The notes under the pieces were generated by a model. That model saw only the letters and a list, made by a program, of their open reading frames with translations, did no database searches and was not told the origin of the DNA. This document shows, piece after piece, positions 112 to 17,145 of a stretch of DNA of 22,423 bases; position 1 is the first letter of the stretch, and every line of letters begins with the position of its first letter. The DNA comes from a virus, in the IMG/VR virus record IMGVR_UViG_3300025816_000078, positions 1-22,423 of that record, one strand, 5' to 3'. The position numbers were made by a program, and so were the translations under genes.

Positions 112-2031
112 TTATGCTAGGTCGGCCAGCGTCTTGATTCTGTCTAGTTCCGTGTTGATTGCTTCTGCTTCCGCTTGTGCTTCTTCTGGAACTTCCATTT
201 CTTCTTCTGAAAAAAACTCTTCAAGTTGTAAGCCTGCCATCTCTATAGCATCCTTCAGTGTGTACTCGTCGTCACCAACTTTAAACTTGTCGCCTGCTTT
301 CATGCCTGCCGCCTTGGCTTTCTGTACTGCCTGTGCAAACTGATTGCCTTCGTTAGTTTTGTCTGCGTATCCTGGTGTGCCTGCTTTCATTCTTTTGTAA
401 GCAGTTGTGTTCATCATTTTATCTGCTTTGGTAACATCTAATTTGGTTGCGTTCTCTTTGTCTTTCTTTTCGATTTCAGAATCTTTTGGTCCTGTTGCAT
501 ATTCATCAATGTCATTAACCCAATTCTCAAACGCTTCAGTCTCTTTGGCCTTGCCTTTTAAATCTTTCTTGGGTGCAAAGTCACCTGGTTCCATTCTTAC
601 TTGATCTGTGTATCCTGGCTCTGACTGCATTTTTTTGTAGTCGTCGATGTATCTCTTGGCCAACTGAACCGCGATCTTCTTGTTCTTGATGTAGTCCGGT
701 GTTGGTTTGAATGTTGCTGAATTTTCTTGTTCCATTTCATCTGCTACTCTAGAAGCGAAGTTTGCCACCCTGTCTTCCTCTCCTGTTTTAGTCAACAGTC
801 TTGATGCTATGTCTGATAGTATAGAACTTAACATCGTGTTCTTGTTTGTGAATTTTGTAACTTTCAACATCTTGTCTGCTGAATCGTCTTTCCTTAAAAC
901 TAATTTTTGATCAGGATCATTTAAGAAACTTTGAACTACTGCTCCATGGTCCACTGGTGCTTGTACAGGTGCGTCAATTGGTTCTGCATCTGGCTCTAAT
1001 TCGTTCACTTGCCCTTCTTCCTTTGGAGCATTTTCTAGTTCACTCATTATTCTGTTTATGATTGGTAATGCATCTTCAACTCTGCTGTCTAGGTTTGTCA
1101 TTGTGAACTTCTCTCTCATTTTGTTAACAGTTTCATCGTCCAGTATTTGTTCTTCTGATGTTTTGAAATCTTTACTTGCGTTTTCGTAGTGTGCTTGGTT
1201 AGAAAGGTTCTTCATGTAACCTCTTAGGTTCTCTAGTTTCAATTTTGTCTGCTCAATGATGTCGCCTGCGTTGTCGTTCAACTGATCTTTGTTAGTAACA
1301 TATCTCGAGAATGAATTTAGTTTTGCTATGTCCTCTGATGTTGAAACGATGTGCTGTCCAAATTCATCATGTGGTCTTCCACCATTTGACACGTGTCTCA
1401 TCATTGCTCTCGCACCTGCTAAATGAGTTAATGGATACTTGAATCTTTCGCCGTCTTCGTTTTCAATGTATAGTGATTGTATCTGTCTTGATCTTGCACC
1501 TGGCACAGTCTCGTCAACTTTGCCTTTGTGTCTGATTATCAATTTTGTTTTGTTTAGGTTCTCGTACGAACGTTTTGCAGTGCCTGTTAGGCCTTCTGTA
1601 ACACCTGCTAGTTTAGTGATTCTTGCTAGTTCTTCTGACATTTCATCAGTATTTACCGTTTTGTTCGTATCTGCAAGATTTTCATAGTCCTGCTTCGTTA
1701 GGTTGTTTTTGGTGATATCCCTAACGTCAAATCTCATTTGATGCTCCACTGCAAAGTCTTTCAACTCTTTAAGGAATGCATACCACTCGTCTCTGCTGTC
1801 CTCATCAATCTTGTTAACTAGATCCCTGTTGTAGTACACTTTCATGTTCTCACCGTCTGCTAGGCTTATGCTTACGCTACCAAAAGTGTCTGCGTCCTCG
1901 GCAAATTCAAACTCAAAAAATACAGCACTGCTTGGATCGGCTGTAGCGGCACCATTTTCATCACCTAGTCTGATGTTTGAGAATTGCGATCTTATCTTGT
2001 TGAATAAATCTTCGGAGTTTTTAGGGTTCAT
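112..2031 (-). CDS. Conserved hypothetical protein of T4-like marine phages, 639 aa
   Basis: A long hydrophilic, charged protein with no signal peptide or membrane segment, probably cytoplasmic or virion-associated. A segment at about residues 164-230 has the pattern EN.DGERF.YP..HL.GARAM.RHV..GG.P.D..GQHI. From memory this recurs in hypothetical proteins of marine T4-like phages; its function is unknown to me. A Pro/Ala/Val-rich linker near residues 345-365 separates N- and C-terminal halves. The motif ITKLAGV (138-144) resembles ILKLAGV in the 276-residue protein at 3676-4506. The ATG at 2031 is chosen because AATAAATA ends 7 bases before it and no Shine-Dalgarno is present. It is the last gene of the gp18-to-gp17 run, 12 bases after the terminase stop codon. 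A structural or head-assembly role is inferred from location only. Confidence 0.8.
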   Translation of the reverse strand: MNPKNSEDLFNKIRSQFSNIRLGDENGAATADPSSAVFFEFEFAEDADTFGSVSISLADGENMKVYYNRDLVNKIDEDSRDEWYAFLKELKDFAVEHQMRFDVRDITKNNLTKQDYENLADTNKTVNTDEMSEELARITKLAGVTEGLTGTAKRSYENLNKTKLIIRHKGKVDETVPGARSRQIQSLYIENEDGERFKYPLTHLAGARAMMRHVSNGGRPHDEFGQHIVSTSEDIAKLNSFSRYVTNKDQLNDNAGDIIEQTKLKLENLRGYMKNLSNQAHYENASKDFKTSEEQILDDETVNKMREKFTMTNLDSRVEDALPIINRIMSELENAPKEEGQVNELEPDAEPIDAPVQAPVDHGAVVQSFLNDPDQKLVLRKDDSADKMLKVTKFTNKNTMLSSILSDIASRLLTKTGEEDRVANFASRVADEMEQENSATFKPTPDYIKNKKIAVQLAKRYIDDYKKMQSEPGYTDQVRMEPGDFAPKKDLKGKAKETEAFENWVNDIDEYATGPKDSEIEKKDKENATKLDVTKADKMMNTTAYKRMKAGTPGYADKTNEGNQFAQAVQKAKAAGMKAGDKFKVGDDEYTLKDAIEMAGLQLEEFFSEEEMEVPEEAQAEAEAINTELDRIKTLADLA

Positions 2032-2037
2032 ATAGTG

Positions 2038-2045
2038 TATTTATT
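2038..2045 (-). promoter_or_regulatory. Late-type -10 (AATAAATA) six bases before ATG 2031
   Basis: The minus strand reads AATAAATA, then six bases (CACTAT), then the ATG of the 639-residue gene. The element overlaps the stop codon of the terminase gene. With T4 late spacing, transcription would start within a base or two of the A of the ATG. Confidence 0.6.
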
Positions 2046-3636
2046 ATCCTGTGAACGATCCAAATATGGGCATTGGTGTTATCTCACTTGTACGATCTGT
2101 CCATTTCTCAAATATTTTAGGGTCAAAATCCGCCAACACTTTCATCATACGAGTCATTAATAGACACGCACTGACTAGGTCATCGTGCTGTCCCGGTTTT
2201 GCTTTGTAACTCATGCCACTAGCCACGAAATCTTTGAGTTCTGATATAAGCAGTTGTGAATTGATCTTCATTTTGTTGTTCTCTATAAGTTCTTTGAATT
2301 TTGTACAGGCATCTATCTTGTGTTTGGCAGTGGTATTGAACCCTCTTCTGAATTTTCTTCTATGTCCTTTCCTTATGGGTTCTGATAGGAACATGCCCAT
2401 TATGTTTTCTTCTCCTATGTCCATTACCCTTAACAGGGCGGCCTCGCCTAGCGAGTTATTCTCCATTGAATAGAATATCTGTGGTGTTGCTGTTGCATCT
2501 TTTTCCATGATTGTATCATGTAGATGTTTTGTGATACTTTGCAGGATTCTTACCTGTTGATTCATTGGCGTTGTGTTGTGATGCCATTCTCCAACTTGCT
2601 CAAATGTGGGTAACTCGAAAACTTGTATTGCGGCGTAGTCACCGCCTGTTCCCATGCTAGGATCTAAAGATACCATGTATGTCATTCCTGGTGTTGGACG
2701 TTTGAACCAACGTACCTGTCCTGTTGTTTCCACCGGAGCCGAGGCGTCCATGTCTGCTAGATGAATACTGTCAATTAGGGTTTCATCAAAGATTAAGAAT
2801 TCACATTCGTGTTCCCTCCTGAACCTCTCATCACCGATCCTGGCCTTCTCTGCTTCCGCCCATTCTTCGTTCCTGTCTGGGTGTTCTGACCAGTGTGCCT
2901 TCATGGCGTAGAAGCCATTTGTTCCTACTAGTTTGTCATTGCCATACTCGTCAAATCTCTTGTTTGCTTCCTTCCAGATCAATGCGAACTGGTCTTCGTC
3001 ACTGTTAGGTGTGCTTGTGATCATACACTTACCACCTGTACTCAATGTTGGTGACAGTGATGTCCAAAACTCCTTGGCCTTCTCTGGTGGTTGCACGAAC
3101 GCGAACTCATCACAGTAGATCAAAGTAAGTGACATACCCCGTCCTGTGTTCTCAGTTGTTGTGGTCGCCATGATCTTTGATCCGTTGTCAAACTCTATGC
3201 TGTTCCTGTTGTATTGTGTCACGCCCGCTTTGATCCAACTGGGCAACATCTCGTATGCGTAACGCACCCTCGACATTATGTCTGATGCTCCTGCGTATTT
3301 GTGTGCGGCGATTAGTATCTGTGAATCTGGTCTGAACATGGCATACCAAATAAGGAATCCTGACGCACATGTGGTCTTGCCCGTCTGTCTAGGTAGCATG
3401 GCAATTGAAAATCTGTGATCGTTGTAACTGTTGATCAGTCTTTCTTGATACGGGAATGGCTGGAACGGCATTGAACCTTTCACAGGATGTTGTATCTTCA
3501 TGAATGTTTTCATAAAGAACAATGGCCCCGTTTTTGGGTCCATGCACTTCTCAAGTTGTTCCACTTGGGCCTTGCTGTATTTGTGTTTCTTGTGCGCCTT
3601 CTTAATTTGGTCGCTATCTAGTGATACATACGCCAT
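2044..3636 (-). CDS. 17: Terminase large subunit (gp17-like packaging ATPase/nuclease)
   Basis: Motor of DNA packaging: it cuts concatemeric DNA and pumps it through the portal. Visible motifs: adenine-binding Q-motif region FQPFPYQ (58-64), Walker A-like LPRQTGKTT (81-89), Walker B TLIYCDE with D176/E177, and coupling motif TSTP (207-210). The C-terminal RNase H-like nuclease domain shows SLDP with D325, an acidic E392 in SMENNSLGE, and D485/D486 in QHDDLVSA. These match the catalytic triad positions known for T4 gp17. At 530 residues it is somewhat shorter than T4 gp17 (610). Its partner gp16 is not adjacent: two unknown genes (3676-5120) lie between. The ATG at 3636 follows a GTTAAATA element by seven bases and has no Shine-Dalgarno. 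Confidence 0.97.
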   Translation of the reverse strand: MAYVSLDSDQIKKAHKKHKYSKAQVEQLEKCMDPKTGPLFFMKTFMKIQHPVKGSMPFQPFPYQERLINSYNDHRFSIAMLPRQTGKTTCASGFLIWYAMFRPDSQILIAAHKYAGASDIMSRVRYAYEMLPSWIKAGVTQYNRNSIEFDNGSKIMATTTTENTGRGMSLTLIYCDEFAFVQPPEKAKEFWTSLSPTLSTGGKCMITSTPNSDEDQFALIWKEANKRFDEYGNDKLVGTNGFYAMKAHWSEHPDRNEEWAEAEKARIGDERFRREHECEFLIFDETLIDSIHLADMDASAPVETTGQVRWFKRPTPGMTYMVSLDPSMGTGGDYAAIQVFELPTFEQVGEWHHNTTPMNQQVRILQSITKHLHDTIMEKDATATPQIFYSMENNSLGEAALLRVMDIGEENIMGMFLSEPIRKGHRRKFRRGFNTTAKHKIDACTKFKELIENNKMKINSQLLISELKDFVASGMSYKAKPGQHDDLVSACLLMTRMMKVLADFDPKIFEKWTDRTSEITPMPIFGSFTG

Positions 3637-3643
3637 AGTGTAG

Positions 3644-3651
3644 TATTTAAC
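3644..3651 (-). promoter_or_regulatory. Late-type -10 (GTTAAATA) seven bases before ATG 3636
   Basis: The minus strand reads GTTAAATA then CTACACT then ATG of the terminase large subunit. It is a weaker match than TATAAATA but keeps the TAAATA core and the spacing seen at other genes here. Confidence 0.5.
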
Positions 3652-3675
3652 GCTGTGATGTAACTTGGAAAAGTA

Positions 3676-4506
3676 TTACTTTGCTTCTTTGTCTTTGATG
3701 GCTTTTTTCATTGGTTCTTTTTTATCGCCATCTTTGTCCATGTCTAAGAAGTCAGGTTTTGCCGCTTCTTGATATGCAGTTTTGAAACTTTCGTACTGTG
3801 TTCTAAGACTGTTAGCCAACTCTTCCTCAGTGATCTTGTCTTCTGCCGCCATTGGATTGTCGCCTGGAGAAACTCTTGGATGTGTTTGCTTTTGTCTGTT
3901 TAAACCACCTGAGTGTTTGTTTACCAAACTGTCAACATCTTGAACCTTTTCTTCTGGTTCGTTTGCAAACGTTTCTTCTTTTTGTTCGTCTTCTGGATTC
4001 TTGATTATGTCTCTCATTCTAGCCATGTCCATTGAACCCGCCGCATCGTCATCGCTGTGATCCATGTCTGATCCATGTTCTGGCTCTTGGCTAATCATTG
4101 CCTGATCAACTTGTTGCACACCTGCAAGTTTTAATATCTGCATCATCATTGATGCTTCCTGAGGGCTGTCAGTTGAAATTTTAATTGCTTCTTTCACAGT
4201 TTCTTTTTTGTCTTCTTTGCCTGCTTTTTTGTCATGGTACGCTTTTAGACCTGCTGGCATCTTGCCTTCAACTGCTTCTTCTGTTCCGTTGATGCTGTCC
4301 CAGAAACCTGCTAGGCTCTCACCGTGTTTCTTTAAGAATTCTTCTCTTGAAAGTTTCTCTGCTTCGTCGTGCAAGTAGTCTTTCATGCCACCTTCAGTAA
4401 CTGCTTTTGGATTTGTCTTCTCAACGTTCTCCACTGCGTCTTTGACCAATTCAGGTTTTGATTCTGCTATTTCTTTTAACTTTGTTAATACGTCGATCAT
4501 TTCCAT
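3676..4506 (-). CDS. Hypothetical acidic/lysine-rich protein with EF-hand-like C-terminus, 276 aa
   Basis: Not assignable to a named T4 protein. It is very rich in Glu, Asp and Lys and probably helical or partly disordered, with no membrane segment. Features: ILKLAGV at about residues 123-129, an Asp/Met-rich stretch in the middle, and a C-terminal DMDKDGDKKEPM (255-266) that resembles a calcium-binding EF-hand loop (D255, D257, D259, G260, D261). The gene starts two bases after the stop of the 203-residue gene with AAGGAAAG just upstream and no late-type element, so it is probably translated from the upstream gene's transcript. Its position between gp16 and gp17 suggests head assembly or packaging, but that is inference. 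Confidence 0.8.
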   Translation of the reverse strand: MEMIDVLTKLKEIAESKPELVKDAVENVEKTNPKAVTEGGMKDYLHDEAEKLSREEFLKKHGESLAGFWDSINGTEEAVEGKMPAGLKAYHDKKAGKEDKKETVKEAIKISTDSPQEASMMMQILKLAGVQQVDQAMISQEPEHGSDMDHSDDDAAGSMDMARMRDIIKNPEDEQKEETFANEPEEKVQDVDSLVNKHSGGLNRQKQTHPRVSPGDNPMAAEDKITEEELANSLRTQYESFKTAYQEAAKPDFLDMDKDGDKKEPMKKAIKDKEAK

Positions 4507-4508
4507 AA

Positions 4509-5120
4509 CTATTTCTTTCCTTCTATTGGGTGTGCTTTTGTGATTTTTGAGAACGGACTTGGTGTTCCTACTTCTTCTTTGCTCATTGCATCTTGTGTTT
4601 TGTTGTCTTTGCCGTTTACAATTTCGTATCTGTCTTCTTTGTCTTTTAATAATTCTTTAAGAAGACTCATGTTGTGTTTGTCACCAAAGTGCTCTTCACC
4701 TTTAACCGGATGCTCTTGGAATTTTGTTTCTACGTCTGCTATCTTATTTGCCAATTCAGACTTCTTAGCAACCTGCATGTCGTCTTGGTATTCTTCTGTA
4801 GGCTCACCTGGTTTCCTTACAACCATGTGTGTCATCGGAATCCTTAGTAAGTCCGAAAGGTACTCATGCATCACTCTCGGTGACTCTGGATAGTTGGTTG
4901 TAACGTCAAAAATAGTAACTTGTTCGTTGCTTAATCTTGGAAAGTCCAAAGGCAAAGTCATTATTGGTGTGCTTTTGCCTGCTGACATTTTAGCAAGATC
5001 AAATTTTTGCAGTGCTGTTTCTAAAGCATTCTTGTCAATGTCTTTTGGCTCGCCAGCAATCTTAATTCTATAGTCATATGACTTAGTTGATTCTGTTAGG
5101 TAGTCTTGGAACGTGCTCAT
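4509..5120 (-). CDS. Conserved hypothetical protein of marine T4-like phages, 203 aa
   Basis: Function unknown. The N-terminus MSTFQDYLTES has the amphipathic M..F..YL.ES form I associate with several head-related proteins of T4-like marine phages. A central conserved-looking core includes TPIMTLPLDFPRLSN and, near the middle, RKPGEPTEEYQ. The C-terminal third is charged and low in complexity. The frame is open to a TTG at 5126, but the ATG at 5120 is preferred because ACTAAATA ends seven bases upstream and TTG offers no better ribosome site. It lies three bases from the end of gp16 and is followed after two bases by the 276-residue gene, so the three probably form one packaging/head cluster. 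Confidence 0.82.
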   Translation of the reverse strand: MSTFQDYLTESTKSYDYRIKIAGEPKDIDKNALETALQKFDLAKMSAGKSTPIMTLPLDFPRLSNEQVTIFDVTTNYPESPRVMHEYLSDLLRIPMTHMVVRKPGEPTEEYQDDMQVAKKSELANKIADVETKFQEHPVKGEEHFGDKHNMSLLKELLKDKEDRYEIVNGKDNKTQDAMSKEEVGTPSPFSKITKAHPIEGKK

Positions 5121-5126
5121 ATGCAA

Positions 5127-5134
5127 TATTTAGT
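5127..5134 (-). promoter_or_regulatory. Late-type -10 (ACTAAATA) six bases before ATG 5120
   Basis: The minus strand reads ACTAAATA then TTGCAT then ATG. The element lies in the last codons and stop of gp16. Its spacing supports the ATG at 5120 over the TTG at 5126. Confidence 0.55.
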
Positions 5135-5657
5135 CTTTTTTAAGTAGTTTCTTCATTAATTCGTTACGATCAGATATGACGAATCCGTCGCTTTCTTCCA
5201 CTGGACCACCGTCTTTGTTGCCCTGATCTAACTTCTGCTTTTTAAGTTGTAATTCGATCATTTTAAGTTTCTTGTCGATTTTGCCGCTTTTGGCGTCTAT
5301 GGCGTTCCTTAGGAAATTGCCCGCAACTTCGAATATACGTCCTGAATATCTGGAGTCAACGTTCATGCCCAAATCCATCAGATTCTTGTAACTTTCTTCC
5401 GCTTCTATGGCCAGTTTGTCCAGTTCAAGATCACTCAATTCGCCTAGACCTTTTACCTGTGGCAGTGCGGCCGCAACCTTGTCAAATTCCGCATAACTTT
5501 TCTGTAGATTCTTCTGTGTCTGTGGATCTAGATTCTTGGCAGAAGCGTGTTGTCCATTTGCCTCCTTGATCTTCTTGTCTTTTTCCTTCTTGTCCACCTC
5601 TTTGAATGCCTCTTTGACATTTGGTAAATTAAGAATGTCCTCTAATTTTTTTGTCAT
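5130..5657 (-). CDS. 16: Terminase small subunit (gp16-like)
   Basis: Small terminase recognises phage DNA and stimulates the gp17 ATPase. The 175-residue length is close to T4 gp16 (164). The central part (about residues 75-145) has the family's two-helix coiled-coil pattern: DLELDKLAIEAEESYKNL, then GRIFEVAGNFLRNAIDAK, then a Lys-rich helix KKLKMIELQLKKQK. This resembles the T4 gp16 helices that start DLEDDYG and continue with a MEVFATLMGQ-type segment. The N-terminal 40 residues are very charged. I assign it by this pattern and by context (gp4 just upstream, gp17 downstream), not by a clear catalytic motif. The ATG at 5657 follows AGTAAATA by five bases. Confidence 0.8.
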   Translation of the reverse strand: MTKKLEDILNLPNVKEAFKEVDKKEKDKKIKEANGQHASAKNLDPQTQKNLQKSYAEFDKVAAALPQVKGLGELSDLELDKLAIEAEESYKNLMDLGMNVDSRYSGRIFEVAGNFLRNAIDAKSGKIDKKLKMIELQLKKQKLDQGNKDGGPVEESDGFVISDRNELMKKLLKKD

Positions 5658-5662
5658 CGTCG

Positions 5663-5670
5663 TATTTACT
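5663..5670 (-). promoter_or_regulatory. Late-type -10 (AGTAAATA) five bases before ATG 5657
   Basis: The minus strand reads AGTAAATA then CGACG then ATG of gp16. The element overlaps the stop codon of gp4. A five-base gap would place the late start site on the A of the ATG. Confidence 0.55.
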
Positions 5671-6106
5671 TACGTTTGCCGTTGTGGAACAACTGTTCTT
5701 CTGAAACAACCCTGAATCTAATTTTTCTCTGTTTGGCGTATGCGTTTGCGGCCTCCCACTTGGCCATGTTGATCACGACCTGTTTCTTCTTGGCCATACT
5801 CTTGCCCGCGGCCTCCATTGTGGTCTGGCTCATGGGTTTAACTTCAACCATCTCAGCGTGTTTACGACCTTCCTTGTCTTGGTACACTATGAAGAAGTCA
5901 GGCACGTACACAGTGTACTTGCCCGTAAATGGATGCCTGTACGGTATCTTAATTGACTCTGAGGCCCATTGATACACGTTTGGATGTTCATCACACAGTC
6001 TCATGAAAGAATGTTCCCAACTTGATCTGTATGTCGGTGTTTTAGTGCCCACGTATTTCTCCGCGTTCTTGGGAGAGAACTTGCCCCTAGCAAATCTTGG
6101 TAACAT
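5666..6106 (-). CDS. 4: Head completion protein gp4-like, PD-(D/E)XK nuclease fold
   Basis: In T4, gp4 acts at the head-completion step after packaging, together with gp2 and others. The 146-residue product matches the T4 gp4 length (150). It shows the family layout: a basic N-terminus with PKNAEKYVG (12-20), then TYRSSWEHSF with E31, WASESIKIPY with E50, and a nuclease-like core of VPDFF with D70 followed by EVK at 88-90. Together these look like a PD-(D/E)XK/TnsA-type catalytic set (D70, E88, K90) with nothing missing. The start overlaps the previous stop as TAATG, so translation is probably coupled to the 125-residue gene. gp16 follows eight bases downstream. Confidence 0.85.
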   Translation of the reverse strand: MLPRFARGKFSPKNAEKYVGTKTPTYRSSWEHSFMRLCDEHPNVYQWASESIKIPYRHPFTGKYTVYVPDFFIVYQDKEGRKHAEMVEVKPMSQTTMEAAGKSMAKKKQVVINMAKWEAANAYAKQRKIRFRVVSEEQLFHNGKRK

Positions 6107-7874: not shown

Positions 7875-7879
7875 AGTGT

Positions 7880-7887: not shown

Positions 7888-7892
7888 GTCAC

Positions 7893-7921: not shown

Positions 7922-7950
7922 GCTTATAATTGCTAACTTAATTTTTTGTA

Positions 7951-8577: not shown

Positions 8578-8587
8578 CTGTTTCTCC

Positions 8588-8595
8588 TATTTATT
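8588..8595 (-). promoter_or_regulatory. Late-type -10 (AATAAATA) before gp19, abutting a GGAG Shine-Dalgarno
   Basis: The minus strand reads AATAAATA directly followed by GGAGAAACAG and the ATG. A start site at the usual late distance would remove most of the GGAG from the transcript. The Shine-Dalgarno may therefore serve read-through mRNA from gp18, while the promoter adds a near-leaderless gp19 mRNA. Confidence 0.5.
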
Positions 8596-8600
8596 CAAAA

Positions 8601-11600
8601 TTAGTTCCCTAACTTTGCAATTTCTCCTGTGTTTTTGATTCTCAACGGTATGTAAATAAATTCAACTGACTTGATCGGCTCAATTGCTATATCCACATAA
8701 AGTTCGTTCCTGTCAATCCTTGTAGGTGTGTTGTTGGTGTCATCACAAACTACTAGGAAGTCAAACAATGCTCTCTGACCTGTTAACTCCAACAAGAATG
8801 ATTCTATTGCACCCTTGATCTCGTTTCTTGTAAGTTCATCATTTGGTTCGAAGATGAATGGTTTAGCGATTGCATCCAGTTGTGTTCTTAGATACACTGC
8901 TAATCTTGAAACGTTGATCCTGTCTAATGCAGAACTTGCCGATGTTTTAGTTAAGTTACCGAAGTTAACAATTCCTGCACCTGAGAAGAAAGTGATTGGA
9001 TTCACTTTGACCTCATGCATTGAATCTCTCACTGACTCCGTAACAGATATTGTTTCGAATTCTCCACTTGCTGTGTCGATGTAACCAACTGCTGTGGCGT
9101 TGTCAACGACACCTCTTCTTGTTCCTGCTGGTGCGAACCATGGGAAAGCGATGTTGTCGTTGTTGGCCAGTGTTCTCAACATCATGTGTGATGGTGGAAC
9201 AACGATTACTTTACCTGTGTTGTCTGTTGTAGATCCAGACGGATAAAACACACCCAAGTAATCACTTGAGCTTACTAGGCCGTCTTCACCGTTGTCCAGT
9301 GCTGACGCTGTGTTGTTTGCCCAGTTTTGTATTGAAGTTGACGTGCCCTCTAATCTTAAAGGAGTGTCCCCTACAACAAACGCTGTGTTGTTTCTATCTG
9401 TGTTTAGGTTAATCATGTTTTGAATCAGTTCTGGGTAACCAGGTGTAGCAATTACATTGTAACCTCTTTGGTCTTCTCTGATTGCTTGGTTAGTGTCGAT
9501 CTCTGATTTCAATTGTTCAACAATTACTTTTCTCTGTGCTTTTCTTCCAAAAGATCCAGAGCCGTCTGCGTTGTTGCTTGATTTAGTAACCCATCTATCA
9601 GGGAAGTAAGTTGATACGCTCTCGTTACTTTGTCTGATGTTACCTAATCCTGCGGAACCGCTACCTGGATATTTCGTAGTTGTGATGTAACTGTTTTTGT
9701 ATTCTTTCACATTGTAACCAGATCTTCTAGTGTTCCAAAGCATGATACCTTGTGGGTAGTTGTCTGGGTTAGGAGCATCTGGATCTAGGAAACCATCGCT
9801 CAACAAGTCTTTGATTGTGCTGGATGTACCCGCACCGCCTGTTGACAATGAATCTGCCTTGTCAGCCGTTGTGTGTAATCTAGCATCTGCAAACACAACA
9901 CCATCTTCTGTTGTTTGGTCTGCTTTATCAACTAATTCCCAAGCCGCGCCTGATGTAGTTACTGCAACTTGGTTCGCTGTGTTTGTAGAACTCAAAGTTG
10001 CTGATGTGTTGTATTTGTAAAGTTTTGGATAGTTTTCTAAGTCTGAAGTGTCAATCCATAAGTCGTTAGTTACAAGTGCAGTACCGTCTGACTGTGTAGT
10101 CGGTGCTGTTGCTGAAAACTGTGGACCATTTGGATCTGTTGTTGAGTATGCTGTCGCATATCCAACCCAAGTCGTTCCATTGTGTGCCATGATGTCTGCT
10201 TCGTCAGTCGCAGTGTGGTACCATAATGTACCGTCCGCTGGCTCATTAGTTGGAGAACTTGTTGAAGCAGTGTAGCTCAATCTCTTCCAGTTACTTGCCA
10301 TGATACCTGTGTTAACACTCGAGTCAAGGCTCTCACCTGTTGGTAGGTCATACAAGTTGTCAATCAATGTTGCACTGTTTGCCGTGTATGTTCCATAACT
10401 GTGTGCCGTTGTTGCACTGAAACCTGCATCTGCTAATGGTGTTCCTGTTCTGTCAACCATTCTGAACTCACCGCCAAGTTTGTGTGACATCTGGATTGCA
10501 CCTGTGCTTAATTTAGTTGCAGTAACGTTAGTCAAACCTGCCGCACTTACTGCCGCTACAAAGTCATCAGCACCAGTACCACCTAGTGTTACTGTTACTT
10601 CTGAGTTAAGTGCTTCCTGGTTCTTAACTGATTCTTGAATCGCAAAAGTTTCTGAACTTGTGAAACTTGGTGAAGTAGTATTACTTGTGATAGTAGTAGC
10701 ACCACCTTCATATCTAAAGAATTGAAAGTCTGCAACATTTCCAGTTGAGTCTACACCACCTAAATCATTGGCACCCATGCTTTCTTCAGTGACATTGTAC
10801 TGTGCATACAATGTGCCTGTAGTCAAAGCAGTTCCACCGTTTCCTGGATCTAGATTAAAGATTGCAGAGTGATGATTACTGTGAAGTGGACTAGCAACTT
10901 GAGAGAAACTTCCACTTGCTGTAGCATAAAGTTTTGCAACTAATGCCGCACCTGAGTTTGCTGATGTAGTTTTGAACCAAACTGAACCGTTAGGTCTGTT
11001 CTCGTCTGCCGTTTTCCAAGTTGGTCTGTTTGTGTGGCTTTCTTGTAAAAGTTTCACACCGTTTTTCACGCCTGCTGTAATTCCTAGGTCTGCTAAACCA
11101 GTACCTGTATTTGCTTCAAACCTGATAGTGTTAGCACCACCTGTTGAGTCACCTAAAAACTTACCGTTGTGGAAGATTTCTAAGTTACCTGTTGTGCTAT
11201 TGATCGCTGACGTAACGTTAGTAACATTACTGCCAATCGCTGTGTTAACATCTGACAATGCCGTACCACCAAAGGTAATTTCAACACCGTTCATTGTGAT
11301 CTTGTTACCACTTGTAACTGTTGTTCCTGATGCAACTGTCACTACCGGTAAAGATGTGTGCCAGTCGGTAGAACCAACATGCACCCATGTGTTACTTGCT
11401 GTTTTCTTGTAGATCTTGTTTGTAACGTGTGTCGTATTGATTGCGTAATCACCAATTACACCTATTGAAGTTTTTGGTGCACCAGTTGAGACACTGCCAA
11501 CTAGGTCACTTGTTGAAGTGATCAGTGTTGGAGTAATTGATGTGAATGATTGATTAGTCTGTGACCACTCAAATAGACCGTAACTGCTTGATGCAAGGTC

Positions 11601-12011
11601 AAACCAGTATGTGCCATCTGTTGGTGCCGCTGTTGGTGCCGAGGCACTTCCAACTAATTCTGCTGTGTCCACATTCGCTCTTAGTACGAAAGCTCTGTTG
11701 GCAACTCCTAAAAATGAGTAAGCCGCTTGTAAGCCATACTCATTCAGCTCATAACCATTTAGGCTGTTTCCCGATGCGTCTGTGTAGAATTTCGGATCTC
11801 CGAAAGTCTCTGTTAATTCTCTTTGTGACGAGATCAAATATGCAGTGTTGGCGTTGGCAGTCTGTGTTCCTGCCGCTGTGCCGTCTCCTGCACCATTTTG
11901 CTTGTCCTGTGATGATGCTACTATGAATAGTGGTGTAGTACCCGCATCTGATGGTACGTAGAAACTCTCGTTTATTACTGAAACCTCTACTCCTGGTGAT
12001 GTTAATGCCAT
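8601..12011 (-). CDS. 18: Tail sheath protein gp18 with very large insertion
   Basis: Forms the contractile sheath that drives the tube through the cell envelope. The N-terminus (MALTSPGVEVSVINES, 1-16; AYSFLGVANRAFVLRANV, 97-114) and C-terminus (NVSRLAVYLRTQLDAIAKPF, then LDFLVVCDDTNNTP-type and IAEPIKSVEFIYIPLRIKN-type segments) are sheath family. At 1136 residues it is far longer than T4 gp18 (659). Residues ~120-740 look like inserted surface domains, Ser/Thr/Asn/Gly-rich, with repeated DGT.W modules (132-160, 592-617, 649-695) and a duplicated GGT...LAD.G domain (247-313 and 476-533). The ATG at 12011 has AAGGAG ten bases upstream and a 40-base leader from an AATAAATA element. gp19 follows at 23 bases. 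Confidence 0.95.
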   Translation of the reverse strand: MALTSPGVEVSVINESFYVPSDAGTTPLFIVASSQDKQNGAGDGTAAGTQTANANTAYLISSQRELTETFGDPKFYTDASGNSLNGYELNEYGLQAAYSFLGVANRAFVLRANVDTAELVGSASAPTAAPTDGTYWFDLASSSYGLFEWSQTNQSFTSITPTLITSTSDLVGSVSTGAPKTSIGVIGDYAINTTHVTNKIYKKTASNTWVHVGSTDWHTSLPVVTVASGTTVTSGNKITMNGVEITFGGTALSDVNTAIGSNVTNVTSAINSTTGNLEIFHNGKFLGDSTGGANTIRFEANTGTGLADLGITAGVKNGVKLLQESHTNRPTWKTADENRPNGSVWFKTTSANSGAALVAKLYATASGSFSQVASPLHSNHHSAIFNLDPGNGGTALTTGTLYAQYNVTEESMGANDLGGVDSTGNVADFQFFRYEGGATTITSNTTSPSFTSSETFAIQESVKNQEALNSEVTVTLGGTGADDFVAAVSAAGLTNVTATKLSTGAIQMSHKLGGEFRMVDRTGTPLADAGFSATTAHSYGTYTANSATLIDNLYDLPTGESLDSSVNTGIMASNWKRLSYTASTSSPTNEPADGTLWYHTATDEADIMAHNGTTWVGYATAYSTTDPNGPQFSATAPTTQSDGTALVTNDLWIDTSDLENYPKLYKYNTSATLSSTNTANQVAVTTSGAAWELVDKADQTTEDGVVFADARLHTTADKADSLSTGGAGTSSTIKDLLSDGFLDPDAPNPDNYPQGIMLWNTRRSGYNVKEYKNSYITTTKYPGSGSAGLGNIRQSNESVSTYFPDRWVTKSSNNADGSGSFGRKAQRKVIVEQLKSEIDTNQAIREDQRGYNVIATPGYPELIQNMINLNTDRNNTAFVVGDTPLRLEGTSTSIQNWANNTASALDNGEDGLVSSSDYLGVFYPSGSTTDNTGKVIVVPPSHMMLRTLANNDNIAFPWFAPAGTRRGVVDNATAVGYIDTASGEFETISVTESVRDSMHEVKVNPITFFSGAGIVNFGNLTKTSASSALDRINVSRLAVYLRTQLDAIAKPFIFEPNDELTRNEIKGAIESFLLELTGQRALFDFLVVCDDTNNTPTRIDRNELYVDIAIEPIKSVEFIYIPLRIKNTGEIAKLGN
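9792..11630 (-). other. Insertion region of tail sheath gp18 (about residues 128-740)
   Basis: This part of gp18 lies between the conserved sheath termini and is low in Cys, Met and charged residues and rich in Thr, Ser, Asn, Gly and Ala. It is made of short beta-type modules with DGT.W and NGTTWV motifs, plus two copies of a ~60-residue unit. Boundaries are estimated from where sheath-like sequence stops and resumes. Confidence 0.65.
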
Positions 12012-12021
12012 TTTTCGTATT

Positions 12022-12027
12022 CTCCTT
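12022..12027 (-). promoter_or_regulatory. Shine-Dalgarno AAGGAG of gp18
   Basis: The minus strand reads AAGGAG ten bases before the ATG at 12011. It is a strong site, unlike the genes with start codons next to their promoters. Confidence 0.75.
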
Positions 12028-12050
12028 GCAAGTTACGTATATACTAGAGT

Positions 12051-12058
12051 TATTTATT
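12051..12058 (-). promoter_or_regulatory. Late-type -10 (AATAAATA) of gp18
   Basis: The minus strand reads AATAAATA about 40 bases before the gp18 ATG, giving a leader that contains the Shine-Dalgarno. It is the only such element in the gp18/HNH divergent region on this strand. Confidence 0.65.
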
Positions 12059-12100
12059 CAATCATATGGTTTTTACGACATAATTTAACGTTTTCGAGGT

Positions 12101-12112
12101 GCCTATATAGGC
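12101..12112. other. 12-base perfect palindrome GCCTATATAGGC
   Basis: A perfect inverted repeat in the divergent region between gp18 and the HNH-like gene, ending two bases before the plus-strand CGTAAATA element. It could be an operator for a dimeric regulator or a chance palindrome; without a U run it is not a terminator. Confidence 0.4.
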
Positions 12113-12114
12113 GA

Positions 12115-12122
12115 CGTAAATA
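12115..12122 (+). promoter_or_regulatory. Late-type -10 (CGTAAATA) five bases before ATG 12128
   Basis: The plus strand reads CGTAAATA then CACAC then the ATG of the HNH-like gene. The core TAAATA and the five-base gap match the minus-strand genes gp16, gp13 and the tube-fold protein, showing the arrangement on both strands. Confidence 0.55.
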
Positions 12123-12127
12123 CACAC

Positions 12128-12487
12128 ATGCAGTACAAAGACAGACCGTTGTGTACGGAGTGTAAGACCAAACCCAAGGCCTATGCCTACAAGAGATATG
12201 GCCGTGTGTATTGGCGTAGTCGGTGTGACACCTGTATCAGGAAACGGGCTGGCAAGCGAGTTGGCGGTGTGACCGCACTACAGAGATCTGGATACAAGAA
12301 GCACAGGAAATGTGAGTTGTGCGGGTTCAAAGCACAAGATAAGGCACAACTGGATGTGCTGTTTGTGGATGGTGATATGAGGAATACTGTGTCTACAAAT
12401 CTAAAAACTGTTTGCGCCAATTGCCAGAGGTTGGGCAGTACTCGTAGATTGGGATGGCGTGTTGGTCATCTTGTCGCTGACGATTAG
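12128..12487 (+). CDS. Degenerate HNH/zinc-finger protein, 119 aa
   Basis: A very basic small protein with two zinc-binding Cys pairs of pairs: C9/C12 with C33/C36, and C62/C65 with C96/C99. The second unit has the HNH-nuclease frame (CELCG, then LDVLFVDGD, N86, NLKTVCANC). However, the first catalytic His is absent (FVDGD where HHxDG is usual) and the final His after C99 is Gln. N91 remains. It is therefore probably a DNA-binding or structural treble-clef protein and not an active nuclease. It stands alone on the plus strand between gp18 and the dNMP kinase. Its last 28 codons, including C96 and C99, overlap the 3' end of the convergent kinase gene. Confidence 0.8.
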   Translation: MQYKDRPLCTECKTKPKAYAYKRYGRVYWRSRCDTCIRKRAGKRVGGVTALQRSGYKKHRKCELCGFKAQDKAQLDVLFVDGDMRNTVSTNLKTVCANCQRLGSTRRLGWRVGHLVADD

Positions 12488-13054
12488 GTCGTCTATCTTT
12501 ACGTATAATTCTTCTTTGGAGCCATTGTTCTCGATGACGAAATCAAACTCTTCCTTTGCCCAGGCGTATTCTGAACTATGTATGCCTTTGGGTTCTATGT
12601 TGCCTTCTGTGTAGTCAACAAACCAGTCCGGGTCTTGTCCTCTTTTTACAAGTATGATCTTGCCTCCACGTTCTCTGATCTGTTTCACTTCGTTGGGAAA
12701 TCTTGTGTCCGCTATCACGGTGTTTTGGCCTTTGTATCTGCCTATGCAACTGTCCACCCAGATACCGTCGTACATCTGACCACGCATCACTTCCGTGCCG
12801 AAGTATTGTAGTACCCATCTTGGGGTTGTTGGTTTGCCAAATTTTGCACTCCAAAACTTGTCCGGTTGTTCTCTCCATTGTCTGCTGGATTCCGTGTCTC
12901 CTTCGAGTAGAGCCCTGTCCCAATTGAACATGGATGCCACTGCATCTTTGAGACTTTTTGCGAAACTGTCTTTTTGATAGTCGTGTTTCTCCACCAGCCT
13001 ATCAGACACAGTGCCTTTGCCAGAACCTATTAAACCTACTACACCTACTAACAT
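12401..13054 (-). CDS. 1: Deoxynucleoside monophosphate kinase (T4 gp1-like)
   Basis: Phosphorylates dNMPs to dNDPs for phage DNA synthesis. The P-loop is GLIGSGKGT (7-15); ADTRFPNE (115-122) corresponds to the DTR motif of T4 gp1. QYFGTEVMRGQ (83-93) and a C-terminal ENNGSKEELYVKI fit the family, as does the length (217 versus 241 in T4). Residues 190-217 are a Ser/Thr/Gln-rich tail beyond the expected domain end and are encoded opposite the HNH-like gene's 3' end. The ATG at 13054 has no Shine-Dalgarno but lies six bases after a sigma70-type TATAAT with TTGAAA 17 bases further up. It is a lone metabolic gene inside the structural cluster, apparently transcribed under different control. Confidence 0.88.
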   Translation of the reverse strand: MLVGVVGLIGSGKGTVSDRLVEKHDYQKDSFAKSLKDAVASMFNWDRALLEGDTESSRQWREQPDKFWSAKFGKPTTPRWVLQYFGTEVMRGQMYDGIWVDSCIGRYKGQNTVIADTRFPNEVKQIRERGGKIILVKRGQDPDWFVDYTEGNIEPKGIHSSEYAWAKEEFDFVIENNGSKEELYVKIDDLIVSDKMTNTPSQSTSTAQPLAIGANSF

Positions 13055-13060
13055 AGGTTT

Positions 13061-13089
13061 ATTATACTATTTTTTTAAACGTTTTTCAA
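13061..13089 (-). promoter_or_regulatory. Sigma70-type promoter of dNMP kinase (TTGAAA-N17-TATAAT)
   Basis: On the minus strand, TTGAAA at 13089-13084 and TATAAT at 13066-13061 are separated by exactly 17 bases. The -35 matches the consensus at five of six positions and the -10 at all six. Six bases separate the -10 from the ATG, so the A of the ATG is the expected start site. The -35 lies inside the 3' end of the 60-residue gene. Confidence 0.75.
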
Positions 13090-13249
13090 TCTCTTTGATT
13101 GCTTCTTTTACAGATTTTAATATGGTAATTCTTAGACTCTTTTTCCTTTGCTTCAGTGCCTTCATGCTCATCAGTTCTAAATCTTGGACCAGTTGTTCCA
13201 ATTCATCTAGCGTAAGATCTGAATAACTTTTGTAATTGGAATCTTTCAT
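13067..13249 (-). CDS. Small coiled-coil protein, 60 aa
   Basis: Function unknown. The sequence is strongly helical with regular Leu/Ile spacing (LTLDELEQLVQDLELMSM, then ITILKSVKEAIKEIEKRL) and a basic C-terminus, so it is a likely two-helix coiled coil. It starts at the ATG at 13249, seven bases after a TTTAAATA element, as do other genes here. That supports it being real despite its size. It lies between gp13 and the dNMP kinase on the same strand. It could be a small regulator or an assembly factor; the sequence does not decide. Confidence 0.65.
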   Translation of the reverse strand: MKDSNYKSYSDLTLDELEQLVQDLELMSMKALKQRKKSLRITILKSVKEAIKEIEKRLKK

Positions 13250-13256
13250 TGCAGGG

Positions 13257-13264
13257 TATTTAAA
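13257..13264 (-). promoter_or_regulatory. Late-type -10 (TTTAAATA) seven bases before ATG 13249
   Basis: The minus strand reads TTTAAATA then CCCTGCA then the ATG of the 60-residue gene. It is a weaker match but has the same spacing pattern. Confidence 0.45.
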
Positions 13265-13280
13265 TGTAGTTTGTTACCAA

Positions 13281-14042
13281 TTAACCAATAACAAAACTGT
13301 GTGGAGTTCCGCCTTCTTGGAAGTTTCCTATGTCTGCTTCTAGTCTGTCAATTTCCGCTTGACCTTCTTGCTTCAATGCATCACCGTTCAGTGTGGTACC
13401 ACCCTGTGGACCTGCTATGGTATTGAATTTACCTCTCGCTTCGCCTAACATTATTTTAGAAACAGCGAGTGTGTAATCTCTTATCCACGGTTTACTGTAA
13501 ATGTCTTTGAACAATGTGATGTCAGGTCGAAAGTTGTCTGTGTGCATAAGAACTGTCTCATCGTCTGCTCTTGGTCTTTGAGTGATGGTCAATTTTTTTG
13601 TGGCCACATCAAAATGGAATTGTATAAAACTTCCAAACATTTTTCCTATCATTTCCTGGTACGATGCAAAGGCATAGTAGGTTGCTAATCCACCTGTTGC
13701 ACCCGCTCTTAAAAGATATGTGTTTGTGTAGGCCAGGTTGAATGGTTCAAACAATGTACCACCTTCACCGCCTTCTGTCCTTGATCCCACAGTCCTCCTG
13801 TTAAGGTTCCTAACATTGATGATCTCATCTGGTAGGATGTAACTGTTTTGATTTTTCTTCAATTCTAAGAACGCATATGATTCTTCCACAGCGTTTGAAG
13901 ATCTCTGTCTGAATTTGTTTACGGCTCTTTCCAGGGCCGTTTGATAGTGTTTTGGGTCTAATTCCACGTCAATCATCCCGTCACCGAGATTGTTCTTAAC
14001 GTAATCGAAAATTTCCTGTTGTCCTGTTTGTAGTTCTGACAT
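13281..14042 (-). CDS. 13: Neck protein gp13
   Basis: Part of the neck that seals the filled head and joins it to the tail, working with gp14. The C-terminal half carries the family's well conserved stretch: SKPWIRDYTLAVSKIMLGEA (about 187-206), then KFNTIAGPQGGTTLNGDALK. The N-terminal LQTGQQEIFDYVKNNLGDGM is also typical. The frame is open upstream to 14123, but a perfect TATAAATA at 14048-14055 marks the likely start. The ATG at 14042 (MSELQ) is five bases after it, the same gap as at other genes; an ATG at 14048 (MSMSELQ) overlaps the element and is less likely. At 253 residues it is shorter than T4 gp13 (309). It is divergent from gp14, unlike T4, where 13 and 14 are co-directional. Confidence 0.92.
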   Translation of the reverse strand: MSELQTGQQEIFDYVKNNLGDGMIDVELDPKHYQTALERAVNKFRQRSSNAVEESYAFLELKKNQNSYILPDEIINVRNLNRRTVGSRTEGGEGGTLFEPFNLAYTNTYLLRAGATGGLATYYAFASYQEMIGKMFGSFIQFHFDVATKKLTITQRPRADDETVLMHTDNFRPDITLFKDIYSKPWIRDYTLAVSKIMLGEARGKFNTIAGPQGGTTLNGDALKQEGQAEIDRLEADIGNFQEGGTPHSFVIG

Positions 14043-14047
14043 ACTCA

Positions 14048-14055
14048 TATTTATA
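14048..14055 (-). promoter_or_regulatory. Perfect late promoter -10 (TATAAATA) of gp13
   Basis: The minus strand reads TGACTATAAATA then TGAGT then ATG. It is an exact match to the T4 late consensus, with the same upstream TGAC as at 7887. It is back to back with the gp14 element 14 bases away. Confidence 0.8.
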
Positions 14056-14069
14056 GTCATTGCCTGTGC

Positions 14070-14077
14070 AATAAATA
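14070..14077 (+). promoter_or_regulatory. Late-type -10 (AATAAATA) of gp14
   Basis: The plus strand reads AATAAATA, then eight bases, then the ATG at 14086. With the gp13 element it forms a compact divergent late promoter pair within 30 bases. Confidence 0.6.
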
Positions 14078-14085
14078 TGTATGAT

Positions 14086-15255
14086 ATGCCAAGATTATCC
14101 ATTTTTAAGCCTGAAAAGGGCAATGACTACAAGTTCTTCGATCGCAACATCAACGAGATGTTTCAGGTGGGCGGCACGGATCTACACCTACACAAATACC
14201 TAGGTCCATATGATCAGGGAGATACCAACAAGGACGGACCTGCATCACCTAGCCAGCCTAGAGTGACCGGAAGTGATCTAAACGAAACGACCATACAGGA
14301 TTTGCTATTTTTAGAAAACAGAGACAGGAAGTATTCAAGCGACATCTATACTGTCAGGGGAATATACAATGTACAAGATGCAGATTTCAATCTATCACAG
14401 TTTGGCATGTTCTTACAGAACGACACATTATTTTTGACTGTGCATCTAAATGATATAGTAGAGAGAATTGGCAGGAAACCAATGAGCGGTGATGTTATTG
14501 AATTCCCGCACATGAAAGAAGATTATTCATTAGATGAAAGTGTGCCAATAGCACTCAAAAGATATTACGTAGTTGAAGATGTAAACAGAGCGGCAGAAGG
14601 ATTTTCGCAGACTTGGTGGCCGCACTTACTAAGATTAAAAATGAAAACTCTAGTAGACTCTCAAGAGTTCAGAGATGTAATTGGTGATGCAACAACAGAA
14701 GGATCTGTTGCCAGTTATATGAGTACATACAACAGGGAAAAAACTATAAACGATCAAGTTGTGGCACAGGCAGAACAAGACGCACCAAAGGCAGGATTCA
14801 ACTACAAACAATACTACGTTGCACCTATCGATGAGAGGGGTAACATACGTACAGAAAATGTCAATACAGAAGAACAAAGGGCCAGTAGTGATAATACTGT
14901 TAATGCAACAATAGACACACCGGCAAGTTCACATTATGGATTTTACCTAGACGGTGATGGTGTGGCACCCAACGGAAATCCTGCAGGGTTTGGTATAACA
15001 TTTCCGACAACAGGCGTAGACACAGGTGACTACTTCTTGAGGACAGATTTCTTACCGAACAGGTTGTTTAGATATGATGGAGCCAGATGGGTTAAAATTG
15101 AGGACAGTGTGAGAATAACTACAACTAACAATGATTCTAGAGGAAACTACAAAACAGGTTTCGTCAACAATACTACTGAATCAACAATAAACGGATTAAC
15201 AGTTACACAAAGACAGTCATTGACAGATGCTCTGAAACCAAAGGCTGACAATTAA
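14086..15255 (+). CDS. 14: Neck protein gp14 with C-terminal extension
   Basis: Neck protein that with gp13 completes the head and forms the tail docking site. The N-terminus (RLSIFKPEKGNDYKFFDRNI at 3-22; EMFQVGGTDLHLHKYLG at 24-40; TTIQDLLFLENRDRKY at 68-83; YNVQDADFNLSQFGMFL at 94-110) is typical of marine T4-like gp14. The 389 residues exceed T4 gp14 (256); residues ~260-389 are an extension with GDYFLRT and LFRYDGARWVKIED (314-340), similar to modules in gp15 and gp18. An ATG at 14077 is in frame, but 14086 (MPRLS) fits the family start and lies after the AATAAATA element. gp15 starts two bases after its stop codon. Confidence 0.92.
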   Translation: MPRLSIFKPEKGNDYKFFDRNINEMFQVGGTDLHLHKYLGPYDQGDTNKDGPASPSQPRVTGSDLNETTIQDLLFLENRDRKYSSDIYTVRGIYNVQDADFNLSQFGMFLQNDTLFLTVHLNDIVERIGRKPMSGDVIEFPHMKEDYSLDESVPIALKRYYVVEDVNRAAEGFSQTWWPHLLRLKMKTLVDSQEFRDVIGDATTEGSVASYMSTYNREKTINDQVVAQAEQDAPKAGFNYKQYYVAPIDERGNIRTENVNTEEQRASSDNTVNATIDTPASSHYGFYLDGDGVAPNGNPAGFGITFPTTGVDTGDYFLRTDFLPNRLFRYDGARWVKIEDSVRITTTNNDSRGNYKTGFVNNTTESTINGLTVTQRQSLTDALKPKADN

Positions 15256-15257
15256 GA

Positions 15258-16710: not shown

Positions 16711-16715
16711 AACTT

Positions 16716-17144: not shown

Positions 17145-17145
17145 A

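Follow-up and report, generated by a model that had tools for sequence, protein, structure and literature searches.

Gene content of the window and its relatives

The stretch analysed here, referred to as the window, is the complete IMG/VR virus record IMGVR_UViG_3300025816_000078 with a length of 22,423 bases, in which the hexamer TAAATA, the core of T4-type late promoters, is located a few nucleotides (nt) upstream of nine start codons. The window carries T4-type virion genes for the terminase large subunit gp17, a gp16-like protein (with a weak match to terminase small subunits), a head closure protein, the tail tube protein gp19 and the tail sheath protein gp18, as well as genes for gp13, a structural protein, a sheath-stabiliser-like protein, a dNMP kinase and a nudix protein, and two long open reading frames (ORFs) of 685 and 831 amino acids (aa). 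The latter two probably encode fibres; a relative of the 685-aa family also matches tail-fibre families. The name gp14 is adopted from an earlier note on this DNA, in the following called the original prediction, and the corresponding PHROGs annotation is virion structural protein.

According to the terminase, the nearest isolate is Pseudomonas phage PA5oct (Arenbergviridae) with 55% identity. The lineage is T4-related and probably marine, the marine origin being taken from the labels of three metagenome bins. Public viral contigs contain 316 terminase stretches matching the lineage. Relatives were collected in two scans of viral contigs, from each of which the best 80 were used (160 relatives), and a scan of genome contigs yielded 4 relatives in the three metagenome bins, which are labelled Pelagibacter, Betaproteobacteria and Rickettsiales.

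TAAATA is placed 5–8 nt before nine start codons

The original prediction had listed nine genes with TAAATA separated from the ATG by a gap of 5–8 nt, and all nine spacings were reproduced exactly when the 80 nt upstream of the main genes were read (Table 1). The hexamer itself is not enriched in the window, as its 17 occurrences compare with a mean of 13.1 in shuffled sequence and 15 of 100 shuffles reach 17. Nine of these occurrences form the fused cassettes, four lie 10, 37, 39 and 65 nt before the genes for gp19, the 685-aa protein, gp18 and the 831-aa protein, respectively, and four are located elsewhere. At gap 5–8, TAAATA stands before nine of the 19 gene starts. When the corresponding upstream 80-mers were dinucleotide-shuffled 3000 times, no hit was obtained 2692 times, one hit 291 times, two hits 15 times and three hits twice. 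The full TATAAATA is found at two sites of the window only, i.e. before the genes for the tube-fold protein and gp13.

At positions 5127–5132 and 5663–5668 (minus strand), the TAA stop codon of the preceding gene is at the same time the first half of the next TAAATA, so that stop codon, putative promoter element and start codon are contained within 14–15 nt. The divergent start codons of gp13 and gp14 are 43 bp apart, and at the tube-fold gene a hairpin, TATAAATA and the ATG follow each other in direct succession; this hairpin was not listed by a simple terminator scan and was revealed by folding.

Table 1 Putative promoter cassettes and associated features of the window. Gap, number of nt between the hexamer and the start codon; SD, Shine-Dalgarno; counts refer to orthologous upstream sequences.
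Feature	Position	Strand	Arrangement	Orthologs
639-aa virion protein cassette	2029–2043	−	TAAATA 2038–2043, 6-nt spacer, ATG 2029–2031; TAAATA directly after gp17 stop	gap 6 or 7 in 61/61
gp17 (terminase large subunit) cassette	3634–3649	−	TAAATA, 7-nt spacer, ATG	gap 6–8 in 58/58
203-aa virion protein cassette	5118–5132	−	TAAATA, 6-nt spacer, ATG; TAA is the gp16 stop	gap 6–8 in 63/63
gp16-like protein cassette	5655–5668	−	TAAATA, 5-nt spacer, ATG; TAA is the head closure gene stop	gap 5–6 in 62/67; no TAAATA in 5
Tube-fold protein cassette	7872–7887	−	TATAAATA 7880–7887, 5-nt spacer, ATG 7872–7874	gap 5–8 in 58/58
Terminator-like hairpin and T run	7888–7922	−	few nt before tube-fold promoter; −13.9 kcal/mol, z −5.5	at tube-fold gene in 15/15 lineage contigs
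gp19 (tail tube)	8575–8593	−	TAAATA 8588–8593 at gap 10, GGAG directly after	SD 4-mer in 47/47
gp18 (tail sheath) leadered late promoter	12009–12056	−	gap 39, SD AAGGAG	SD 4-mer in 63/63
HNH-like protein cassette	12117–12130	+	TAAATA, 5-nt spacer, ATG (first base 12128); divergent from gp18	gap 5–8 in 72/72
dNMP kinase sigma70-type cassette	13052–13089	−	TTGAAA, 17 nt, TATAAT, 6-nt spacer, ATG (first base 13054)	TATAAT at gap 5–7 in 65/75, absent within 40 nt in 9; SD 4-mer in 0/75
60-aa protein cassette	13247–13262	−	TAAATA, 7-nt spacer, ATG	gap 5–8 in 70/70
gp13 (head-tail adaptor) cassette	14040–14055	−	TATAAATA, 5-nt spacer, ATG	gap 5 in 63/63
gp14 cassette	14072–14088	+	TAAATA, 8-nt spacer, ATG (first base 14086); divergent from gp13	gap 6–8 in 64/64
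nudix sigma70-type cassette	16681–16718	+	TTGACG, 18 nt, TATAAT, 5-nt spacer, ATG (first base 16716)	TATAAT at gap 5–6 in 39/48, absent within 40 nt in 8; SD 4-mer in 0/48
685-aa gene leadered late promoter	19255–19300	−	gap 37, SD GGGAGA	SD 4-mer in 15/15
831-aa gene	21810–21883	−	TAAATA at 65 nt, GGGAG near ATG	SD 4-mer in 0/3 found

The spacing is conserved in the relatives. A gap of 5–8 is kept in 571 of 576 distinct orthologous 80-base upstream sequences of the nine genes; for this count, ortholog starts other than ATG, GTG or TTG were shifted to an in-frame ATG close by, and orthologs without a clear placement had been discarded beforehand. The spacers differ in sequence (with 50 different versions at the 60-aa gene, 41 at the HNH-like gene, 33 at gp16, 22 at the tube-fold gene and 9–11 at the other five) and hardly vary in length. 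Directly upstream of TAAATA, 13 bases are variable (0.5–0.8 bits) before gp13, gp14, gp17 and the 60-aa gene and conserved before the other five genes, where a gene end, a terminator-like hairpin or a palindrome is located. The conservation tables took in only sequences with TAAATA, and the 2.0 bits of the hexamer in them are due to this construction. No ortholog of the operon-internal 276-aa, head closure and 480-aa genes has TAAATA within 80 nt upstream, and the 125-aa gene has it in 2 of 62 (absence in 58/58, 63/63, 60/62 and 58/58 for the four genes).

The start codon is ATG in 98–100% of the members of the nine families, a figure to be read with the start placement, which favoured ATG, and with the fact that leadered families use ATG, too. 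An alternative gp14 start at the in-frame ATG at 14077, which overlaps TAAATA, was rejected because it is missing in some orthologs, whereas the one at 14086 is kept. More generally, the promoters could be real and the true start codons could lie further downstream, the leaders then being located inside the annotated ORFs. This is extremely improbable, since the third codon position accounts for a share of 0.58–0.83 of the differences over codons 2–10 in seven of the nine genes, ruling out downstream start codons for these seven, even though the N-terminal constraint is weak for the HNH-like and the 60-aa protein.

A wider scan of TAAATA-to-start distances against controls had been suggested in the original prediction, and across the lineage contigs it revealed the expected enrichment at 5–8. 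Among 611 ORFs of the window and 11 longer relatives, the nearest TAAATA was found at gap 0–4 in 2, 5–8 in 111, 9–15 in 23 and 16–70 in 42 cases, compared with a mean of 7.0 and a maximum of 14 in the 5–8 bin for permuted hexamers (n = 12). Three more contigs (122, 139 and 54 kb) had 18, 21 and 11 ORFs at gap 5–8, with control means of 2.8, 1.8 and 0.3. Over all 15 contigs, gap 5–8 is represented in 41 of the 239 families and gap 0–4 in 3; these family counts weigh more than the ORF counts, since the relatives share genes. The ORF caller used ATG starts and a minimum of 70 aa and took the candidate start with the smallest gap per ORF, permuted motifs being treated alike; AAATAT and ATAAAT, with 5–8 counts of 44 and 27, were excluded from the control means as they overlap the motif, and one relative (G009) was scanned over 40,000 of its 41,280 bases. 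Chance placement of TAAATA is ruled out by the shuffles and the permuted-hexamer controls.

The cassettes resemble T4-type late promoters

The late promoters of T4, which are served by gp55, gp33 and gp45, carry TATAAATA at −13 to −6 (PMC1524935). Consequently, a gap of 5 would put position +1 on the A of the ATG, and gaps of 6–8 would leave 1–3 nt in front of it. Counted from the end of TAAATA, leadered genes (14 families, family-weighted) have a purine at position 6 in 83% and a T at position 5 in 63%. Compared with the T4 element, the nine cassettes have the TAAATA core in 571 of 576 sequences, with variable first positions. A -10-like signal about 10–12 bp before the start has been described for bacterial leaderless genes (PMC3160421), and gaps of 5–8 after a 6-nt element correspond to this distance.

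A -35 element is not apparent. Matches of 5–6 out of 6 to TTGACA occur in at most 2% of the orthologs of any of the nine genes and never above the shuffled level (0.02–0.07); the mean match exceeds that of shuffled sequence for gp17 (3.38 versus 3.05), the tube-fold gene (3.97 versus 3.20), the HNH-like gene (3.32 versus 3.24) and gp14 (3.64 versus 3.35) and is below it for the other five. An origin of the TAAATA sites from sigma70 promoters was rejected for lack of a strong -35, despite the raised mean match in the four genes named. A gp55-like sigma factor (phrog_12791; E 1.6e-83 and 6.2e-84) is encoded by 2 of 15 relatives, G012 and G013, which are the two largest and both over 100 kb; no match was found in the 13 shorter contigs, nor among the main window ORFs scanned. 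The cassettes are very likely promoters.

Alternatively, TAAATA might be a translation signal, i.e. an A/U-rich unstructured stretch before the AUG (for S1 binding or similar) on an mRNA that starts further upstream. This explanation can draw on the many bacterial genes without an SD sequence (PMC3121790) and on the weak SDs that are frequent in other genes of these phages, too. However, it does not account for the TAAATA located about 30–70 nt upstream of SD-led genes, for its near absence within 80 nt before the four operon-internal genes or for the permuted A/T hexamers, which are not placed at gap 5–8; moreover, a longer RNA would find little space at the tube-fold, gp13, gp14 and HNH-like genes, which have a hairpin or a divergent gene close by. 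We therefore regard a pure translation signal as very unlikely.

Across the contigs, 161 cassettes were counted, orthologs being included repeatedly. A terminator-like hairpin lies just upstream of 21, with 15 of these belonging to the tube-fold gene (one per contig in 15 contigs), and 55 lack any ORF on the same strand that ends in the 300 nt before them. The latter is difficult to reconcile with a read-through polycistronic RNA on which the ribosome reinitiates after termination and in which TAAATA owes its TAA mainly to the stop codon of the preceding gene. Such a mechanism would indeed fit the 41 of the 161 cassettes with a stop codon fused with or abutting TAAATA, including gp16, the 203-aa and the 639-aa gene in the window, but it misfits gp13, gp14 and the HNH-like gene, which are divergent, and the tube-fold gene behind its hairpin, and the whole TAAATA, beyond its TAA, is kept before gp16 (62/67) and the 203-aa gene (63/63). 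Reinitiation in place of a promoter is highly improbable; given the shared or abutting stops, some tandem-gene starts may also be reached by termination-reinitiation on read-through RNA.

With regard to the exact start, gaps 6–8 combined are more frequent in the lineage than gap 5, and the fifth position after TAAATA is an A in 50% (gap 6) and 38% (gap 7) of the cases (family-weighted). Both would be compatible with transcription always starting at the fifth or sixth base after TAAATA, the resulting 1–4 nt at gaps 6–8 acting as ordinary, very short SD-less leaders. Yet a leader of 1–4 nt is too short for an SD and would ordinarily be classed as leaderless, and the base before the ATG is a T in 59% of the leaderless families versus 37% of those without TAAATA, which fits a T-A start at the AUG. 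We assign a minimal probability to this scenario.

Fused genes lack Shine-Dalgarno sequences and a second group of late genes keeps them

An anti-SD duplex energy of −4.5 kcal/mol or better was reached by none of the 96 starts with gap 5–8 (duplicate upstream sequences removed), by 59% of the 34 starts with TAAATA 25–70 nt away and by 30% of the 416 starts without TAAATA. According to the original prediction, none of the nine genes has a clear SD; for seven of them, an SD 4-mer is present in no or one ortholog. The 639-aa gene has one in 41 of 61 orthologs (in the window, AGGA is located 16–19 nt upstream, before TAAATA and inside the end of gp17), and the HNH-like gene in 10 of 72.

SD sequences are found at the genes for gp18, gp19 and the 685-aa protein (Table 1) and at the gp32 gene of G012, and the major capsid gene of another relative (G006) has AAAGGGGAAG and no TAAATA. 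Late genes are thus of two kinds, namely those with a fused cassette and without an SD versus sheath, tube, capsid, gp32 and the 685-aa family with an SD. We take the latter products to be the abundant ones, based on general knowledge of T4 virions.

A second promoter class shows a fused arrangement in its own register

The two best sigma70 matches in positions 1–20000 of the window (11/12) end 6 and 5 nt before the ATGs of the dNMP kinase and the nudix gene, respectively. Over 15 contigs, TATAAT peaks at gap 6 with 20 ORFs from 12 families, compared with 8, 7 and 7 ORFs at gaps 5, 7 and 8; of the other permutations of this hexamer, TTAAAT, which has letters in common with the late motif through overlap, reaches 12 at gap 6 and the rest at most 6. 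A -35 resembling TTGACA (4/6 or better) accompanies 32 of 42 TATAAT cases at gap 5–8 versus 25 of 56 at other gaps and 15% of random places. Since the sigma70 -10 hexamer spans −12 to −7 (PMC7598289), a gap of 6 is its own +1 register. Taken together, a late or sigma70 fused cassette precedes 203 of the 917 ORFs and occurs in 59 of the 239 families. That both promoter classes keep to a register of their own suggests that start codons are placed at +1. The core of the originally proposed leaderless late mRNA class, the fused cassette, is well supported by comparative sequence evidence; the class has to be redrawn in that the late genes split in two and fusion also occurs at sigma70-type promoters.

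Comparison with other phages and known leaderless systems

T4 shares with the lineage the late core before virion genes, the lack of a conserved -35 and the gp55-type sigma factor. In T4, however, 21 ORFs have the motif at gap 16–30 and 25 at gap 16–50 with a mean SD energy of −6.5, whereas 5–8 is the main mode in the lineage. Gap 5–8 was found in 0 of 220 ORFs of T4, 0 of 165 of Syn9, 3 of 214 of P-SSM2 and 3 of 228 of PA5oct, the last two being within the control range, as well as in none in segments of Atu_ph07, Phosso, CBB and Vibrio 2.275.O and in 1 of 54 in SCTP-2.

PA5oct has much of the gene order and the late motif in common with the lineage, but in the 200 kb scanned it carries the motif at gap 16–50 in 41 ORFs, and its ORFs at gap 5–8 are no more numerous than those of permuted motifs. 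Orthologs of six of the nine genes were identified in PA5oct by tblastn; those of gp13, the 203-aa and the 639-aa gene have TAAATA at gaps of 32, 25 and 25 with SD energies of −5.8, −4.9 and −3.9, and leader loss is consequently seen by direct comparison for three genes only. The sheath gene is leadered in PA5oct (gap 46) and in the lineage alike. Since all of these compared phages are leadered, a loss of the leader in the lineage would be the simplest reading.

Partial versions of the arrangement were found in the pelagimyophages HTVC008M (14 ORFs at gap 5–8, 11 at exactly 5; control mean 2.4, maximum 8) and Mosig (7, 6 at gap 5; control mean 2.1, maximum 6), in Melnitz (3, all at gap 5; control mean 0.8, maximum 2) and in the Rhizobium T4-like phage RHph_I1_18 (6, 4 at gap 5; control mean 0.6, maximum 2), and TAAATA is not enriched at any gap in Caulobacter phage Cr30. 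The heptamer ATAAATA occurs at exactly gap 5 in 8 (HTVC008M), 6 (Mosig), 3 (Melnitz) and 3 (RHph_I1_18) cases, with means of 0–0.3 for permuted 7-mers, and in 2 and 1 cases in PA5oct and P-SSM2; at gaps 0–4 it is absent from HTVC008M, Mosig and RHph_I1_18 and present once (gap 2) in Melnitz. Gap-5 fusion is thus common to pelagimyophages and the lineage; in HTVC008M and Mosig it concerns a minority of genes, mostly at gap 5, and HTVC008M has no TATAAT peak at gap 6.

The lambda cI gene is a single regulatory gene. Its transcript is a classic leaderless phage mRNA (PMC9031893, PMC3160421), which likewise has a 5'-terminal AUG and no SD but represents one gene, compared with many virion genes here. 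Bacterial leaderless genes, of which 375 mRNAs have been reported in Caulobacter (PMC4117421), show the same geometry without SD, though as host genes on host promoters and not with two promoter classes in a phage lineage. Phage transcripts in general are called 'often leaderless' in the study of phage AR9 (PMC5312081), AR9 itself having 5' untranslated regions of 26–491 nt, and leaderless phage mRNA as such is known; in the part of that study considered here, the remark does not refer to T4-type promoters. The late start motif of phiKZ, T-3ATG+1, overlaps the letters of the ATG in a similar manner and has no upstream sequence conservation reported in the excerpt considered (PMC7598289), but it is read by the phiKZ multisubunit RNA polymerase, in contrast to the gp55-type -10 element described here.

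Observations on neighbouring features and host labels

Between the divergent gp18 and HNH-like genes, just upstream of the late promoter of the latter, lies a strongly conserved palindrome, GCCTATATAGGC (12092–12122, plus strand), which may be a regulatory site; no significant RNA fold was obtained for it (z −0.94). The HNH-like protein itself (12128–12487, plus strand) has 82 placed orthologs among the relatives, with a conserved promoter, and a weak match to HNH families (E 2e-4 to 6e-4). It may be a domesticated nuclease.

In one relative (L177, near 12,724, minus strand), an apparent tRNA 3' end is located a few nt before a TAAATA fused to an ATG.

Terminase genes of the lineage with 83–100% identity (L406–L409) lie inside the bins labelled Pelagibacter, Betaproteobacteria and Rickettsiales. 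The Pelagibacter-labelled bin (G016) contains, on another contig, a promoter identical to that of the dNMP kinase of the window. As this bin holds the window's promoter too, the phage contigs have probably been assigned to the wrong bins, and as evidence for the host the labels are weak.

Discussion

Leaderless genes and T4-type late promoters are each already known, and T4-type late transcription is a textbook system. Within the openly licensed papers searched, we found no description of leaderless late mRNAs in T4-like phages, nor of a lineage in which leaderless starts and such promoters are fused at many late genes and sigma70 promoters follow a register in parallel.

The geometry of TAAATA and ATG is certain. 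In the mechanism proposed here, each cassette would be a T4-type, gp55-dependent late promoter, from which transcription would start on the A of the start codon or 1–3 nt before it, and the ribosome would recognise the 5'-terminal AUG of the resulting leaderless mRNA and not an SD leader. The leader would be missing before many genes, both at late promoters (TAAATA, gap 5–8) and at sigma70-type promoters (TATAAT, mostly gap 6), and sheath, tube, capsid, gp32 and the 685-aa family would keep their SD sites. From the sequences compared we infer the leaderless translation of the cassettes as well as the start site, the RNA 5' end, the mode of ribosome binding and a leader that was lost rather than never present. 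The fused-cassette reading is well supported by the conserved spacing, the near-empty zone at 0–4 nt, the SD depletion, the greater distances seen in other T4-type phages and in three of the six orthologs from PA5oct and, in addition, by promoters squeezed between a terminator-like hairpin and the ATG. We consider it quite probable that leaderless mRNA is a major mode of expression in this lineage beside SD-led translation.

Besides the shared stop codons, several observations weigh against this reading. The 416 starts without TAAATA have fairly weak SDs as well (median −2.95), so that a weak SD alone proves little, and a strong SD is present in 1 of 18 cassettes of G012 and 1 of 21 of G013 (7 of 12 and 8 of 12 at their leadered starts). 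Five gp16 upstream sequences do without TAAATA, and the third-position shares of the HNH-like (0.43) and the 60-aa gene (0.42) indicate a weaker N-terminal coding constraint. In PA5oct, the gp16 ortholog has a gap of 2, and those of gp17 and the tube-fold gene have no TAAATA within 60 nt. The six-letter TAAATA occurs at gap 0–4 in 6 ORFs of HTVC008M and 4 of Mosig, about as many as in the controls or more (means of 3.1 and 3.2). Finally, 31 of the 47 gp19 orthologs have GGAG right behind the gap-10 TAAATA. If transcription started at position 6, this SD would be missing from the RNA, implying that TAAATA is not the main start there or that gp19 is read from the gp18 promoter; the latter may be its main source.

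The fused arrangement differs from that of T4, where the late motif lies well upstream of an SD, in that promoter and start codon would be merged across many virion genes. As a practical consequence, the rule TAAATA plus 5–8 nt plus ATG would pick out both the late genes and the true start codons of uncultured phages, and it provides a lead for pelagimyophages, for which the prediction of middle and late promoters was reported to be unsuccessful (PMC7029224). The finding also raises the question of whether the phage depends on a host that favours leaderless mRNA or alters initiation itself. With about even chances of being right, we propose that leaderless initiation is the default at transcript heads (sigma70 register 6, late register 5 and up) and that SDs are reserved for products needed in bulk, such as sheath, tube, capsid and gp32, which would amount to a two-tier translation programme written in the promoter-AUG distance; partial versions would then have arisen separately in pelagimyophages and in the rhizobial T4-like phage, perhaps owing to hosts that are efficient at translating leaderless mRNA.

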